The notes under the pieces are model-generated. The model was not told the origin of the DNA, did no database searches, and saw nothing but the letters and a program-made list of their open reading frames with translations. A stretch of 64,000 nucleotides of DNA from Palaeococcus ferrophilus DSM 13482 (lineage in GTDB: Archaea > Methanobacteriota_B > Thermococci > Thermococcales > Thermococcaceae), in the NCBI RefSeq assembly GCF_000966265.1, contig NZ_LANF01000006.1:62001-126000 (forward strand). The letters are read 5' to 3'. Both the position numbers and the translations under genes were made by a program. Of the stretch, positions 10,439 to 24,374 are shown one piece after another. Numbering within the stretch: position 1 is the stretch's first letter; every line of letters begins with the position of its first letter.

Positions 10439-10569
10439 ACCGCTCCCCATGGTGCATGGGGGAGAGCGTTTAAAAACCTTCTCCGAAAGAATAGAACATG
10501 AACCACCGGAACGTTCTTTTCACCGCGTTCCTAAAATATGCCGGAGTGAATGTAAGCATGGTGGGGAAG

Positions 10570-11703
10570 ATGGAGTGGAAGGCCGTTGGTGTAATAATGA
10601 TGATACTCACCGCGCTCATACCACTGGGTCTCTCCAGCGACGAGCCGGAAGTTAGCGGGCTTATGAAGACCCTTGAGGGAGCACACCTGCTTGCAGAGGA
10701 GTGGATAACACCGCTAAAAGACGAGCTCCCCGCGGATTCCCCAATTCTTAAGGACTACTCTCTGGCAGAGGAGTACAGAACCAAGGCCCTCGACGCTTTC
10801 TCAAATGGCGACGAGGTTGCTGCAAGGGAGTACGCGTTGAAGGCGCTCCACAGCTACCGTCTGGCCCTTGAGGGGGTCAAAGAAAGCGGGGAGACTTACA
10901 ACGCCAGCGCGGAGAGGGTGAAGGCTGGACTGGAAAGGCTTAACGCATACTTCACCCGGGCGGAGGAGCTTATACGCTCGGCTAAAAGGGGAGGCCTCGA
11001 CACGTCGGATGCCGAGAAACTCCTGAGGGAAACAAGGGATTCCTACTCCCAGGCCCTGCACGAGCTCAAGGAGGGAAACGTCGAGGGGGCCCGCAAGAAG
11101 TTTGAGGAGGCCGAGTCAAAGAGGAGGGAACTCGATAGTGTTCTCAAGGAGCTTCAGGAGCGGAGCCTAAAGGAGCGGGAGCACGACTTCGTGAAGGCGT
11201 TTCTGGTAAAAACGGAGAGGGGATTGTGGGCCGCGAGAACCTACCTAGAGGCAGCTAAGAACAGAGGGCTGGACGTTTCAAGGGCCGAGGAGAGGCTCGC
11301 CAAGGTTGAGGGGGCCTATCTAGCGGTGAAGACGCTGGCCGAGGAAGGCAGGTGGGACGAGGCCCTAAGGGCGATGAAGAAAAACGCGCCAATCTTCACA
11401 GCTTTCTTTGAGGAACTCAGGCGCGTGGAGCACATAATGGACGGTAAAAGCTTTCCGAACGTCCAGAGCTTCCAGGAAAATCTGGGAGAGCGGGTGCGGA
11501 AGGATACCCTCGCCCTCGAGGCCCTGAAGAGGAGGGGCGTGAACACGGTTCCGGCCGAAATAGTGCTCAGGAACGCCGTGATGGAACTCCAGACCGGGAG
11601 GGAGCTCCTCAAGCGCGGGGAGCCCGAGAAGGCCAGGGAGCACTTCCTGAGGGCGCTGGCGCTGCTGAAGAGGGTGGAGGCATTCATAGGGGAGAAGAGC
11701 TGA
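10570..11703 (+). CDS. Secreted helical-repeat protein, partner of membrane regulator (copy 1)
   Basis: A 377-residue exported protein with a short signal peptide (MEWKAVGVIMMILTALIPLG). The rest is almost all alpha-helix and charged. At least three copies of a repeat of about 45 residues are visible: RGGLDTSDAEKLL..., RGLDVSRAEERLA... and RGVNTVPAEIVLR.... Each ends with a GxxExA helix (EGNVEGARKKF, EGRWDEALRAM, RGEPEKAREHF). The frame is open from 10498, but GGTGGGG just upstream favours the ATG at 10570. It lies 9 bases before the membrane-anchored winged-helix gene. The same arrangement, with a related helical protein, recurs at 18066-20339. Confidence 0.78.
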   Translation: MEWKAVGVIMMILTALIPLGLSSDEPEVSGLMKTLEGAHLLAEEWITPLKDELPADSPILKDYSLAEEYRTKALDAFSNGDEVAAREYALKALHSYRLALEGVKESGETYNASAERVKAGLERLNAYFTRAEELIRSAKRGGLDTSDAEKLLRETRDSYSQALHELKEGNVEGARKKFEEAESKRRELDSVLKELQERSLKEREHDFVKAFLVKTERGLWAARTYLEAAKNRGLDVSRAEERLAKVEGAYLAVKTLAEEGRWDEALRAMKKNAPIFTAFFEELRRVEHIMDGKSFPNVQSFQENLGERVRKDTLALEALKRRGVNTVPAEIVLRNAVMELQTGRELLKRGEPEKAREHFLRALALLKRVEAFIGEKS

Positions 11704-11712
11704 GGTGGTAGA

Positions 11713-12555
11713 ATGAAGAAGGCGGCTCTAATCACTCTCCTGCTCATAATTCTTCCCCTTGCGTCGGCCCAGTATACCGCTGAGCTCTCCCTAACGGTCT
11801 ACAGGGACGGCTACGTCGGCGTTGATATAAAAATAGTCCCGGATGAGTACACGGCACAGGTCAGCATCCCCCTGCCCGGGAGCACCTACGAGAGCCTCTT
11901 CGTTGTGGATGAGGAGGGAAACCCCCTCGACTACTCCGTGGAAGGTGGCACGATGGTCATAAACACGGGGAACGCCTCCCTCGTGGAGGTGAGCTACTAC
12001 ACCCCCGACCTCACCACAAAAGCAGGCCCGGTGTGGACTTTGAGCTTAAACAGCAGCGTCCCCTTCACCGTGGTTCTGCCCGAGGGCACCACGGTCGTGG
12101 ACCTGAGCGACGTGCCCCTCTCAATAGCGGGGGAGAACATAACGATGCCCTCCGGAAACCAGAGCATAAGCTACGTGCTGAGCGCGTCCGTTAACGTGGA
12201 GGAGCCGTCTCCCTCAGGCAGCTCATACACGCCCGCCATAGCTGTTATCCTCCTTCTCTTTGCAGCTCTCGCCGCGGGGGTTTACCTACGGCGCCCGCGG
12301 GAGAAAGGGGAAGAGAAACCCCTGGACAAAGATGCCTACCTAAAGAAGATGGAGGGGTTTGAGCTCAACGACTACGAGAGGGATGCGCTCCTCTACATCC
12401 TCGAGAGGGGCGGCAGGGCCAGCCAGGCCGAGGTAAGGAAAGCCCTCGACATACCCAAAACCACAGCGTGGAGGATGTTCAAGCGCCTCGAGAAACAGGG
12501 GCTGGTGAAAATCGTCAAGGGGTCAAAGGAGAACTGGGTGGAGCTCAAACCCTGA
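11713..12555 (+). CDS. Membrane-anchored winged-helix regulator with extracellular beta domain (copy 1)
   Basis: A 280-residue one-component regulator candidate. The layout is a signal peptide (KKAALITLLLIILPLASAQ), an outside domain of about 150 residues made of beta strands with a sequon-rich end, and a membrane segment (AIAVILLLFAALAAGVYL) followed by RRPR. A cytoplasmic linker leads to a winged helix (residues about 225-280: RDALLYILERGG, SQAEVRKALDIPKTTAWRMF, LEKQGLVKI). The helix is of the archaeal type in which the recognition helix reads PKTTAWRMFKRLEKQGLV. The paralogue at 18066 has the same domain order. The ligand or stimulus and target promoters are unknown. Confidence 0.82.
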   Translation: MKKAALITLLLIILPLASAQYTAELSLTVYRDGYVGVDIKIVPDEYTAQVSIPLPGSTYESLFVVDEEGNPLDYSVEGGTMVINTGNASLVEVSYYTPDLTTKAGPVWTLSLNSSVPFTVVLPEGTTVVDLSDVPLSIAGENITMPSGNQSISYVLSASVNVEEPSPSGSSYTPAIAVILLLFAALAAGVYLRRPREKGEEKPLDKDAYLKKMEGFELNDYERDALLYILERGGRASQAEVRKALDIPKTTAWRMFKRLEKQGLVKIVKGSKENWVELKP

Positions 12556-12557
12556 GC

Positions 12558-12923
12558 TCACGGCACTATCTCCACCTCTATCTCTTTTCCATCGCTGGTG
12601 TAGGCCTTAACGCTCCAGTACTCGAAGGGGAAGCCGATTATCAGGTGAACGCCCCCAAATTTTGAAAAGAAGTGAAGGTCTGCCTTCGATGGTCGAGGGA
12701 GGCCAGGGTGGGAGTGGACCGTCCCCTTCACGTCCTCGTCGTGAGGGAGGAGGTAGGTGTCGAAGAACACGCTCCCCCTGCCGTAGTAGCCCTTCGGGAG
12801 TATAAGCACCTCCTCGAAGATTCCATCCTTCTCCCGAAGCAGGCCCGCGAACTCGTTTGGGTAAAAGCTCCTGGCCATCTCAAGGAGGTAGTCGAGGAGC
12901 TCGCGCCTTATTCTGGCCTTCAT
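12558..12923 (-). CDS. JAMM/MPN+ metalloprotease (desampylase-like)
   Basis: A 121-residue archaeal JAMM protein. The zinc-site motif is complete: a Glu in NEFAGLL near residue 24, HSHPGLPRPSKADL (H-x-H, then S and D), near residues 71-84. Archaeal homologues remove SAMP ubiquitin-like proteins from targets. The ATG at 12923 overlaps the preceding stop (ATGA) with GGAGGG upstream, so it is coupled to the unknown gene before it. Its 3' end almost touches that of the convergent regulator gene. Confidence 0.88.
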   Translation of the reverse strand: MKARIRRELLDYLLEMARSFYPNEFAGLLREKDGIFEEVLILPKGYYGRGSVFFDTYLLPHDEDVKGTVHSHPGLPRPSKADLHFFSKFGGVHLIIGFPFEYWSVKAYTSDGKEIEVEIVP

Positions 12924-18065: not shown

Positions 18066-19019
18066 CTAAAGGTTGAGCTCCACCCAGTTTTCCCTCTTTT
18101 TCTTGTATACCCTAACCAGCCCCTGCTTCTCGAGGCGCTGGAACATTCTCCACGCGGTTGTTCTCGGTATTCCCAGCATCTCCCTAACCTCGGACTGCTT
18201 TGCCCTCCCTCCGCGGTCGAATACGTAGAACAAGGCCTTTTCCTCGTCCTTTGTCAGCTCGTACTGCCCGAGCAGTCTTTCGAAGTCCTCCCTGCTTATG
18301 CCGGGGGACGACGTCTTCTTCCCATCTCTTTTGATGTAGGCAAACCCCGCCACCCCAAGGATCAGGAGAGCCGTTAAACCGGCGAGCAGTGCCCCGCTTC
18401 CCGGTCTCCCCGGGGGGGCTTCATTTTGGGACACTGTTCCACTCACGTTTAAGGGGGCCTCAGTGGAGGACGTGCCAACAGGACCTCCCACAGGCGATGA
18501 CGTGGGTGAGGATACCGTTTTTGCCCCGTCCGTCCGGTATTTGATGACGTAGGAAATGCTCTGATTGCCAGGGGGCATCAGAAGGGAGTTCCCATTTATC
18601 TCAAGGGGTATGTCCGTCAGGTCAACTATAACCGCACTCTCGGGGAAGGTTACCCTAACCGCTACGTCGGAGGAAAAGTGAACACCCCATATGGAGCCGT
18701 TCTTGGCGGTTAAATCAGGGGTGTAGTACGTAATCCTGAGGGGGGTGGCGTTTTCAAAGTAAACTATGAGCCTGCTCCCGTTTACCTCGTAGGGCACGGG
18801 GTTTCCGATTTCATCAACGACGGTTAGACCCTCAACGTTCGGGGTAAGGAGAGGAATGGAAACGCTCACGGTGTAGTTCTCGGGCTGAACTGTTTGGGCC
18901 ACCCTAACGTATCCGTCGGTGTAAACAGTGAGCTCAAGTGATTCGATGGCGTACTGCCCCGCAACCACGGGGATGAGCGAAAGGAGTACGATAACCACTG
19001 CCACCAATTTAGCCCTCAT
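18066..19019 (-). CDS. Membrane-anchored winged-helix regulator with extracellular beta domain (copy 2)
   Basis: A 317-residue paralogue of the protein at 11713. It has a signal peptide (AKLVAVVIVLLSLIPVVAG), then an external beta-rich domain with closely matching segments (QYAIESLELTVYTDGYVRV, ITYYTPDLTAKNGSIW, IPLEINGNSLLMPPGNQS). A Ser/Thr/Pro stalk precedes a membrane segment (GALLAGLTALLILGVAGFAYI), then Lys/Arg and a cytoplasmic winged helix (SEVREMLGIPRTTAWRMF, RLEKQGLVRVYKK). The ATG follows GGAGGTG. It lies downstream of a secreted helical acidic protein on the same strand (60-base gap), mirroring the pair at 10570-12555. Confidence 0.82.
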   Translation of the reverse strand: MRAKLVAVVIVLLSLIPVVAGQYAIESLELTVYTDGYVRVAQTVQPENYTVSVSIPLLTPNVEGLTVVDEIGNPVPYEVNGSRLIVYFENATPLRITYYTPDLTAKNGSIWGVHFSSDVAVRVTFPESAVIVDLTDIPLEINGNSLLMPPGNQSISYVIKYRTDGAKTVSSPTSSPVGGPVGTSSTEAPLNVSGTVSQNEAPPGRPGSGALLAGLTALLILGVAGFAYIKRDGKKTSSPGISREDFERLLGQYELTKDEEKALFYVFDRGGRAKQSEVREMLGIPRTTAWRMFQRLEKQGLVRVYKKKRENWVELNL

Positions 19020-19079
19020 CCCAACACCTCCAGAAATTTGGCGTTACTGCTTTAAAAAGATGACCAAAAGAGGAGGGAC

Positions 19080-20339
19080 TCACTGCCCCTCCTCGTCCCC
19101 TTCCTCGTGATCATCGCTCTCGTTTCCATCCCCGCTGTTCATCTTGTCCGAACCGTCGCTCGGATTTTGCTCCTCTTCGTATTCCTCGCTCTGATTCTGG
19201 TCCCCGGGGGTATCGCTCTCAGAGTACTCACCATGCTGTTCCGTATCTTCCTCGTCTTTCTCCATGCGCTCCTCTTTCTCTTCCTTTTCCTCGTGATCCT
19301 CGTCCTCTTCCCATTCCTCTTTCTCCTTGTGGTACTCCTTCTCTATCTCCCTTGTTTCCTCTATTATGTCCTTTAGTTCATCATTGATATCGTGCAACAT
19401 GTCGAGCGCTTCCTCATACTGCCCCTCCTCAACCAGTGCGTTGAACTCCTCGTACATCGCCTGAAGTTCCTCAAGGTTTTCCTGGAGGTCCGTTGAGTTC
19501 ACAGTGGAGTTTTGGAGCGTGGATATGAGCTCCTGCATGAGCACCATCTGCCCCTGGAGTTTTTCCACAAATGTCTGGCTTATCTCCTCCGCCCTTGCGT
19601 CCACTATCTGCTCCGAAAGCTCCTCAATGGCGTCCTCCAACTTATCCTTGAGCTCCTTGGCGTACTCAAGGTCGCCCTCTAGTGCGGTAAGGTTACCGTT
19701 GGCAATGTCCTGTGCAACCACTGTATACGCGGCCTTGGTCGCGTTGTAGAGTTCCTCAACGGGTGTTACATCAATGCCCTCGCTCCTGCCCTCTTCTATC
19801 ACCCTCTCGGCGTAGGGGAAGTATTCCGCAGACCTCTGGAGCTCCTCCTTCGCGTCGAGGGCAAGCCCATAGTACTCCTCCTCAGACTCCATTTTGGATT
19901 CCCCGTGCTCCTTATAGTATTCGGTCAGCTCCTCCACGACCTCTTTATAGAGGTACAGGGCAGACATTGAGGCGTTTATGCTCTCGCTGTAATTTGCCGC
20001 GTTGTAAAGCTCCCACGCCTGTGCCCTAAGCTCCTCTGCCTGAATGTAGAGTTCGAGAGTCTCGTTTGGAATGGTCGAATTGTTGGCCCTAAGATCCGCC
20101 ATCAGGCCCGTCGTATAGTTGGCGACGTTGTCAACTATCACGAGCATGTTGTATGCCATAGTAATGGTTGTGTTGGTCTCGTTCGTGGTTATGTTTGACG
20201 TGCTGCTGGACAGTGTCTGGTTGGCCACCTCTGGAGTACTGGTTTCCGTTGCGTTGATGCTCGCTGCCCACGCCGCCGTGCTCAGCGGTATCAGTGCCCC
20301 CATAAACAGTACAATCAATATTCTTAAGTTGCCCCTCAT
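19080..20339 (-). CDS. Secreted helical protein with extreme acidic tail, partner of membrane regulator (copy 2)
   Basis: A 419-residue exported protein: a signal peptide (MRGNLRILIVLFMGALIPLS), a Thr/Asn-rich segment with many sequons (NATET, NQTLSS, NITTNETNTT), then long amphipathic helices likely to form a coiled coil (about 60-330). A tail of about 90 residues is almost only E, D, K, H, S, N and G. One segment (EGRSEGIDVTPVEELYNATKAAY) matches the repeat of the 10570 protein. The ATG at 20339 follows CAGGTGAGAACC. The tail suggests binding of divalent cations or of basic surface material; this is inference. It precedes the membrane regulator gene. Confidence 0.76.
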   Translation of the reverse strand: MRGNLRILIVLFMGALIPLSTAAWAASINATETSTPEVANQTLSSSTSNITTNETNTTITMAYNMLVIVDNVANYTTGLMADLRANNSTIPNETLELYIQAEELRAQAWELYNAANYSESINASMSALYLYKEVVEELTEYYKEHGESKMESEEEYYGLALDAKEELQRSAEYFPYAERVIEEGRSEGIDVTPVEELYNATKAAYTVVAQDIANGNLTALEGDLEYAKELKDKLEDAIEELSEQIVDARAEEISQTFVEKLQGQMVLMQELISTLQNSTVNSTDLQENLEELQAMYEEFNALVEEGQYEEALDMLHDINDELKDIIEETREIEKEYHKEKEEWEEDEDHEEKEEKEERMEKDEEDTEQHGEYSESDTPGDQNQSEEYEEEQNPSDGSDKMNSGDGNESDDHEEGDEEGQ

Positions 20340-20538
20340 GGTTCTCACCTGTATTCAACTAGGAAAAGCATGTATATTAGGAACATGCTGAAATTACCGT
20401 GTTTCAAAATGTTTCTACGTGTTTCTTTGGCCGGGATATTCCCATGTGGCAACTACTAACTCTCTTACAGTCCCCTCACTCCTCACGCCCACTCCTCCTG
20501 CTCAAACAAGCACCCTTTCTCAACCGACATCCTTAAAC

Positions 20539-22640: not shown

Positions 22641-24374
22641 ATGAAGGTAAGGAAGATCGCGGCCCTCGCAGTTGGTGCCGCAATGATTGGCGCAACCATG
22701 GGATACGCCAGCGCTCAGCTCAACGTCCCGAAGGACTTCTTCGTTAAGGACGGAATGCCCAACGCTAAAATCGTGGTTGGAAGCAACGCAGCCGCTATGG
22801 ACGTTGCCAGCGCGGCCGACATAGCCGTCGCCATAGGAAGCATGCTCTACACGGCCGAGGAGGTTCAGGCCGACGGTGTGAGCGTTGTCGTTAAGAAGGA
22901 CATAACCACCTACCCCGACCCGATAAAGGTTTACAGCAACTGGTACGAGGACTACGGTACCGTAACCGCTACCAAGTACGATGAACTCCCCACCGACGCC
23001 TGGTGGAACGGAAGCGCCTACAACGGCAGCTACACCGACTGGGACGCCATAACCCCCAAGTTCACCACTGAGATTGAGAACATGGACTCAATCAAGGGCG
23101 ACAAGCAGATTGACTGGGACATCAACATTGACAAGATAATGATCCTTGACAGCGACGGCAAGACCCCTGACCAGACCGGTAACCTCCCGCCCAAGAGTGC
23201 CACCCTTAAGATACCGGCCGGAAACTTCACCATCACGTTCAACTTCGTCATCAAGAAGTGGGAAGTCACCACCAGCAGCACCGACCCGCAGTGGGGTCTC
23301 ACCACCACGAGCACCGAGACCGTCGTTGACGACGACCAGCCAAGCGGAGGCGTTGAGAAGGAGACCGTTTACAGCGGCATAACCTCCGGCACGACCTTCA
23401 CGCTCCTCGGCAACGAGTACTACGTCCTCAACGTCCAGAACGACACCCTCACCTACGGTAAGGACCACGGCGTCCAGTGGTTCCACGTCGGCGACGAGAT
23501 GGAGTTCGACGGCTACAAGATACAGGTCGTTGACATAAGCATCAACGAGCAGAGGGTCCTCCTCAGGGTCACCGCCCCCGACGGAAGGAACGACCTCGTC
23601 ATCATAAGCGTTACCGACGGCGAGAAGGACGTCAGCGAGCTCTCAACCAAGTTCAACCCCGGTGAGCTCGTCCTCACGCTCGACAACACCTTCGTCGGTA
23701 TTGACGGAAACCTCATCGCCCAGCTCGAGATAAGGACCAACGTCGTCTCAGTCAGCAGCGGCGATGAGTTCATTTCAGGCTGGACCGCCACCTTCCTTCC
23801 GGGAACTGGCAACACCATCGAGACCATCGTCCTCACCAACAAGAACGACCTCAGCGGAAGTGACCTTGACATCCTCGGCAAGTACAAGGTCTCCTACGAG
23901 TTCCACGAGTGGACCAAGACCGCCGACTTTGACAACGACGGTGAGGCCGACGACACCAGGTACACCGCCAAGGCCCAGATCGTCATAGACCCGACCGAGA
24001 AGGTCTACGACGAGAAGGAGCTCAAGGTCGGCGACGAGCTCGAGGGCTGGAGCATCGAGCAGATCAAGGGCGCCACCTACACCAAGATAACCGTCAACCC
24101 GGCCGAGAGCATAACCGTCCTCGACACCGAGGTTGACCTCAACGCCGTTGACAGCAACCTCATCCTCGTCGGCGGACCGGTCGCCAACAGCGTCACCGCC
24201 TACCTCGTTGACCAGGGACTCAGCCAGATCAACTGGTACCTCAGCGATGGAGACATCGAGTTCATTGAGAACGCCTTCGGCGACTTCTCCGTCATCATCG
24301 TTGCCGGTAAGAACAGGGAGAGCACCAGGGCTGCCGCCCAGGAGCTCCTTGACTACCTCAAGGACCTCGCTTGA
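22641..24374 (+). CDS. slp: S-layer protein
   Basis: A 577-residue exported protein, the main cell-surface lattice protein. The signal peptide (MKVRKIAALAVGAAMIGATM) is followed by NVPKDFFVKDGMPNAKIVVG, a pattern shared by euryarchaeal S-layer proteins, where residues after the signal bind the envelope. The C-terminal QELLDYLKDLA also matches. Codon use is strongly restricted (AAC, GAC, CTC, ACC dominate), as expected of a highly expressed gene. Sequons such as NGSAYNGSY are present. A strong promoter and leader precede it, and a membrane-anchored companion follows. Confidence 0.94.
   Translation: MKVRKIAALAVGAAMIGATMGYASAQLNVPKDFFVKDGMPNAKIVVGSNAAAMDVASAADIAVAIGSMLYTAEEVQADGVSVVVKKDITTYPDPIKVYSNWYEDYGTVTATKYDELPTDAWWNGSAYNGSYTDWDAITPKFTTEIENMDSIKGDKQIDWDINIDKIMILDSDGKTPDQTGNLPPKSATLKIPAGNFTITFNFVIKKWEVTTSSTDPQWGLTTTSTETVVDDDQPSGGVEKETVYSGITSGTTFTLLGNEYYVLNVQNDTLTYGKDHGVQWFHVGDEMEFDGYKIQVVDISINEQRVLLRVTAPDGRNDLVIISVTDGEKDVSELSTKFNPGELVLTLDNTFVGIDGNLIAQLEIRTNVVSVSSGDEFISGWTATFLPGTGNTIETIVLTNKNDLSGSDLDILGKYKVSYEFHEWTKTADFDNDGEADDTRYTAKAQIVIDPTEKVYDEKELKVGDELEGWSIEQIKGATYTKITVNPAESITVLDTEVDLNAVDSNLILVGGPVANSVTAYLVDQGLSQINWYLSDGDIEFIENAFGDFSVIIVAGKNRESTRAAAQELLDYLKDLA

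Follow-up and report, generated by a model that had tools for sequence, protein, structure and literature searches.

In the Thermococci, genes for a secreted helical protein and for a membrane protein with an external domain and an internal DNA-binding domain almost always stand side by side, and a promoter element that accompanies them, with the 16-bp palindrome TGRAACGNNCGTTYCA at its heart, is new here. Together, the pair and the common promoter palindrome point to an undescribed system that would report from the cell surface directly to promoters. We put the probability of this reading, a two-protein surface circuit in which a membrane-tethered regulator and its secreted partner act through a palindromic operator at their own and other promoters, at roughly 0.6. 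The computation described below covers the anatomy of the genes, their class-wide pairing, the congruence of their trees, and the operator-like element with its occurrence at other genes, and from these sequence features we infer a regulator that would be autoregulated and would command a small envelope regulon. Archaeal sensing of the state of their own surface is largely unknown, and because both proteins, the operator and a short target list are in hand for organisms with working genetics (Thermococcus), a signal from outside the cell to a promoter becomes directly testable.

The window, that is, the whole stretch of 64,000 nucleotides analysed, comes from the 2.2-Mb genome of Palaeococcus ferrophilus, a member of the Thermococcales, and contains two copies of the pair (Table 1). 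A two-gene module had been proposed for copy 1 in the first-pass annotation, and both ORFs are indeed real and adjacent, with a gap of 9 bases; its proposed recurrence at 18066-20339 also holds, as a paralogous pair lies there, helical gene then regulator, on the opposite strand (-). Identity is 40% between the two regulators (E 2e-75) and 23% between the two helical proteins (E 2e-16).

Table 1. Gene pairs and promoter elements in the window, and other genes of the same genome and of a relative that carry the element (positions are those of the window unless a genome and contig are given).
Feature	Position	Strand	Description
Secreted helical protein, copy 1	10570..11703	+	377 aa; signal peptide followed by helices, in which a ~90-aa unit recurs
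Type I membrane regulator, copy 1 (P0002)	11713..12555	+	280 aa; signal peptide, beta ectodomain, membrane helix 175-192, winged helix 206-278
Type I membrane regulator, copy 2	18066..19019	-	317 aa
Secreted helical protein, copy 2	19080..20339	-	419 aa; acidic low-complexity C-terminal tail
Operator-promoter element, copy 1	10497..10538	+	ends in TATA-like CCTAAAATA; 31 nt before the ATG at 10570
Operator-promoter element, copy 2	20373..20420	-	group B form: GAAAC half-sites 10 bp apart, then GTTCCTAATATA
LamG protein gene	G000:C4:60769-61655 (L153:3270-4159)		carries the element
~110-aa protein gene	G000:C9:201049 (L154:3050-3439); G001:C1:461692 (L156)		carries the element

An AlphaFold2 model of the copy 1 regulator, based on an alignment of 26 sequences, agrees with the earlier description of a type I protein whose external beta domain is joined through one membrane helix to a winged helix. 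In this model, a helix at residues 3-13 corresponds to the signal peptide and is followed by an all-beta ectodomain (22-156, pLDDT ~95), the membrane helix, the stretch RRPREK and the winged helix (pLDDT ~95). Since RRPREK follows the membrane helix, the positive-inside rule places the C-terminus inside the cell. The winged helix matches TrmB (36.5 bits, cut-off 25.6), HTH_24 and DUF7343 above their cut-offs and is thus of the TrmB type, and the full-length TrmB architecture with its sugar-binding domain is absent, as judged from the NCBIfam models for TrmB (17.4 bits, cut-off 500) and TrmBL1 (15.1 bits, cut-off 650). DUF7343 (PF24034), a domain of unknown function, is matched by all 26 regulators at E <= 0.01, and its gathering cut-off of 27.6 bits is reached by the window copies (P0002, 27.7 bits; P0003, 30.0 bits). 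Designed TIM barrels that appeared as sequence matches of the winged helix were set aside as composition artefacts. The recognition helix, PKTTAWRMF, is nearly invariant across the regulator groups, which fits a single shared operator.

The ectodomain has no convincing sequence match in the PDB, and its modelled beta fold resembles the N-terminal beta domain of the M1 aminopeptidases. Foldseek matched it to chain O of 8b6l, a subunit of the OST-translocon complex and presumably ribophorin I (E 8.6e-7), and to ERAP1, IRAP and aminopeptidase N (E 4e-5 to 1e-4, with ERAP1 at 4e-5). The likeness to the aminopeptidases and to 8b6l chain O is one of fold, without the catalytic domain; the HEXXH zinc site is absent from P0002, as this protein contains no histidine. 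The ectodomain would thereby add an archaeal membrane receptor to the known occurrences of the M1-aminopeptidase-N-terminal-like fold.

After its signal peptide, the copy 1 helical protein is alpha-helical throughout in its AlphaFold2 model (mean pLDDT 85), and it matches no known fold or family, a PDB fold search at E <= 0.001 having come back empty. The first-pass annotation had called it repeat-built, and this is borne out in part: an internal unit of ~90 aa (GLDTSDAEKLLRETRDSYSQALHELKEGNVEGARKKFEEA and similar) relates segment 2 to segment 4, with none of 1000 shuffles scoring as well, and to segment 3 (1 of 1000); segment 1 and the comparison of segment 3 with segment 4 are unconvincing. 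An assignment as a TPR protein was rejected, as TPR_2 reached 26.6 bits against a cut-off of 27 in only one of 24 members and no PDB fold match was found.

Linkage confined to this locus is clearly excluded by the survey of homologues, in which the pairing proves to be class-wide. Among 94 Thermococcales genomes, the ectodomain protein is present in 89 and the helical protein in 84, and at least 131 of the 148 helical matches are followed directly, on the same strand, by the partner gene; many loci hold two tandem pairs. Outside the Thermococcales, all eight ectodomain-positive genomes (families f2 and f4) have a secreted helical gene followed by a regulator, so that a conserved adjacent gene for an extracytoplasmic partner, as in ToxRS, is found both within the order and beyond it. 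The wider contig search used a 25-sequence regulator alignment, as stricter four-sequence patterns are carried by only 6 of 104 regulators. Most of the unpaired helical genes that were checked come from one subgroup and stand alone. In Pyrococcus-like genomes, some seemingly unpaired regulators have a diverged secreted helical gene just upstream, beside metG. Other regulators there, diverged paralogues with ectodomain and winged helix, have no helical partner and lie behind a DUF134-like HTH gene, close to it or overlapping it (g2; L053, L055, L056 and L057), indicating that the partner is not obligatory for the family.

The trees of the two genes also agree. The distance matrices of the helical and regulator trees correlate with a Mantel r of 0.74, to which shared species history contributes, the maximum of the null distribution being 0.175 (2000 permutations). 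In a swap test, to which species history does not contribute, the true pairing gave a closer fit than the exchanged pairing in all 20 loci with two pairs.

Four pairs are present in the source genome, the two in the window and two further ones, overlooked like the promoter element in the first-pass annotation, and in each of the four a helical gene is followed by an ectodomain gene. One of the further pairs, on contig C11, includes a paralogue that has neither membrane helix nor winged helix and ends instead in EKGVCGPALIGLLAILPLAMRKSL, a CGP-CTERM-like anchor; it scores 19.5 bits against the CGP-CTERM model TIGR04288 (cut-off 21) and has the exact CGP, hydrophobic and basic tail. The other, on C19, has a helical protein with a Met/Trp/Gly-rich tail. 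Among 91 pairs extracted from relatives, 79 partners have a winged helix, 10 have nothing beyond the membrane helix and 2 finish in CGP, an ending seen only in the C11 paralogue and in L039. The ectodomain thus stays with its helical partner despite loss of the winged helix in 12 of 91 pairs, which marks it as the constant partner of the helical protein.

The helical protein would then be a specific extracellular partner of the ectodomain, and we favour a physical partnership of the two on the basis of the matching trees and of the paired paralogues that keep the ectodomain without the winged helix. About a dozen helical genes stand alone, which implies a further role for the helical protein where no receptor is encoded alongside it, and the presence of such lone genes under the operator suggests that it may be an output as well.

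The C19 helical gene (L005:4153-5838), whose long tail is rich in Met, Trp, Gly and Asn, is divergent from genes for an ArsR-type regulator and a heavy-metal P-type ATPase, and a metal link is possible. Near this pair, at G000:C19:242345 (L155:2846-3303), the element precedes a 126-aa ORF resembling the N-terminal part of a helical protein, probably a decayed fifth helical gene. Another candidate for a fifth gene, at C12:15199, was rejected as a cytosolic coiled coil.

In most pairs, those of families f2 and f4 included, the element adjoins a TATA-like box on its upstream side. The aligned promoter block reads TGGAACG-N4-GAAACGTTCGTTTCA-N2-CG-N-GTTCCTAAAATA directly before the TATA-like CCTAAAATA. 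It has dyad symmetry around two centres, both some 3 standard deviations higher than the average over all centres; the palindrome often comes with extra half-sites 10 bp apart, and the f2 and f4 pair promoters hold TGGAACGCTCGTTCCA, TGAAACGAACGTTTCA and the like at the same position. The copy 1 element aligns with the orthologous promoters and matches model R1 at 10506-10538 (35.3 bits, E 7.3e-9), its left half-site being degenerate and shifted by 1 bp. An element model built from 36 sites of groups A and D gave 121 matches at E <= 1 in 92 loci; matches in groups A and D arise partly by construction, unlike the ones found in groups B, C and E or at other genes. Of the 80 matches of at least 15 bits in these loci, 78 precede a helical gene, and their median distance to the beginning of the helical domain is 42 nt. 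In 115 genomes we counted 38 exact copies of the palindrome, never more than one per genome, where about 3 are expected by chance; by coordinate comparison, 27 precede helical genes, 8 precede other genes of the set and 3 lie inside unrelated coding genes, and these last were counted as chance occurrences.

The invariant recognition helix and the palindrome common to the pair promoters strongly suggest that the membrane protein binds DNA. We take the winged helix of the regulator, not another protein, to be the probable ligand of the palindrome because its recognition helix hardly varies, because element and pair go together across three families and because palindromes suit winged-helix dimers. 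It is conceivable, if unlikely, that some other, cytosolic regulator binds the palindrome, with the pair as one target and the membrane winged helix controlling something else. Such an arrangement would accommodate the paralogues that keep the element without an adjacent winged helix (group D pairs) or without a membrane protein (lone helical genes), as well as some Pyrococcus-like genomes that have the pair without the element. The element could not be recognised in eight genomes that carry the regulator. However, the element follows the pair over all three families, f2 and f4 genomes with one pair among them, the recognition helix is nearly invariant across groups, and the near-complete genomes without the pair (G073 and G076) lack good sites, having no exact palindrome and at most one weak site. 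G073 is the sole surveyed genome with a site and no ectodomain gene, and that one weak site lies before a gene that yields no intact ORF. The association of regulator and element across genomes (Fisher p 0.0008) is partly circular, because the promoters of the pair themselves carry sites.

Several other genes carry the element, and these form a mostly envelope- or surface-related set. A signal-anchored protein with a Laminin_G_3 (concanavalin-like) domain is intact in 7 of 94 genomes and has the element in 6 of the 7; in G076 a stop-containing remnant is all that is left. Many genomes have the element at the gene of a ~110-aa protein with the motif GYLFKN..L.GIYV and no Pfam match. The end GPGGFEPPTTRL of several predicted ORFs of this protein suggests read-through into a tRNA gene downstream. 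Single cases were found for a PMT_2 glycosyltransferase, an ABC transporter ATPase, a secreted protein resembling glycosyl hydrolase 39 and a DUF257 protein. The operator search placed no site at the S-layer-like protein gene close to pair 2 (window 22641-24374).

The preferred mechanism, a two-protein surface circuit, would work as follows. The regulator would be a one-component, membrane-tethered protein with the ectodomain outside, one helix across the membrane and the winged helix inside, and the secreted helical protein would bind the ectodomain outside the cell. Binding, or unbinding when other parts of the envelope occupy the helical protein, would alter the dimer state of the winged helix, which would bind TGRAACGNNCGTTYCA beside the TATA-like box of its own operon and would act also at the other paralogous pairs and at a few other, mostly surface-related genes. 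The helical protein may thus serve as ligand, inhibitor or load sensor, and the ectodomain-only paralogues could be decoys that titrate it. We infer the direction of the signal, and the sense of control could be either activation or repression: the element adjoins or overlaps the BRE position, where its flank, GTTCC, makes a poor BRE, which would suit an activator, and overlap with the BRE would also suit a repressor. To a fuller version we give even odds: class-wide outside-in signalling by a type I regulator whose ectodomain is M1-aminopeptidase-like, together with a helical protein secreted as ligand or load sensor, in which one palindrome would control the regulator's own paralogues and a small envelope regulon, and in which the modules would have duplicated and diverged, some of them into decoys without the winged helix; no such arrangement is described in the literature searched.

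A different role for the helical protein, as an accessory chaperone or stabiliser of the regulator with no signal of its own, like ToxS and TcpH for ToxR and TcpP, would fit the gene order and the matching trees, both of which could be expected of an obligate accessory factor. Yet helical genes persist alone under the same operator and stand beside ectodomains without winged helices, and some helical proteins have long specialised tails, which makes this role rather improbable, slightly more so than the cytosolic regulator. That both proteins are mainly structural components of the envelope, for example associated with an S-layer, with the winged helix tethering membrane to chromosome and sensing nothing, is the least credible proposal, since the S-layer-like gene close by and the dispensability of the effector part in 12 of 91 pairs are outweighed by the palindrome, which is conserved, promoter-proximal and limited to a small, defined set of targets, as expected of a regulator and not of a tether.

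In both ToxR/ToxS and TcpP/TcpH, the two genes are adjacent. These systems likewise combine a membrane-tethered winged-helix regulator with a partner acting outside the cytoplasm (PMC7496328, PMC11323476), but they are bacterial, and ToxS and TcpH are membrane-anchored, whereas the helical protein here is free and secreted; no sequence relationship to the present pair was found. Transmembrane transcription regulators (TTRs) are reported to account for a high share of the signalling genes in Thermococci (PMC10269533), and the regulator falls within their definition, since a single polypeptide holds both its DNA-binding domain and its membrane helix, as in the one-component TTRs. In contrast to the TTRs surveyed there, its extracellular beta domain comes first and its winged helix is C-terminal (type I), and a secreted partner gene and an operator are conserved with it; the available part of that survey describes no such family. 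ArnR and ArnR1 of Sulfolobus acidocaldarius are likewise archaeal membrane-bound one-component regulators of surface structures, and the accessible portion of that report mentions no secreted helical partner (PMC6396743); their HTH lies in the N-terminal region (PMC13286277), unlike the C-terminal winged helix here. Queries for DUF7343, for COG2512 and for Thermococcus membrane regulators returned nothing relevant in the literature searched, which contains no description of the pair system and lies mostly outside subscription journals.

Finally, some neighbouring genes should be noted. A gene for a Prok-JAB metallopeptidase-like protein (window 12558-12923) is convergent with the copy 1 regulator, and the copy 2 helical gene adjoins metG. 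The single pair of families f2 and f4 (L210-L213, L215-L218) lies near a deoxyhypusine synthase-like gene in most loci.
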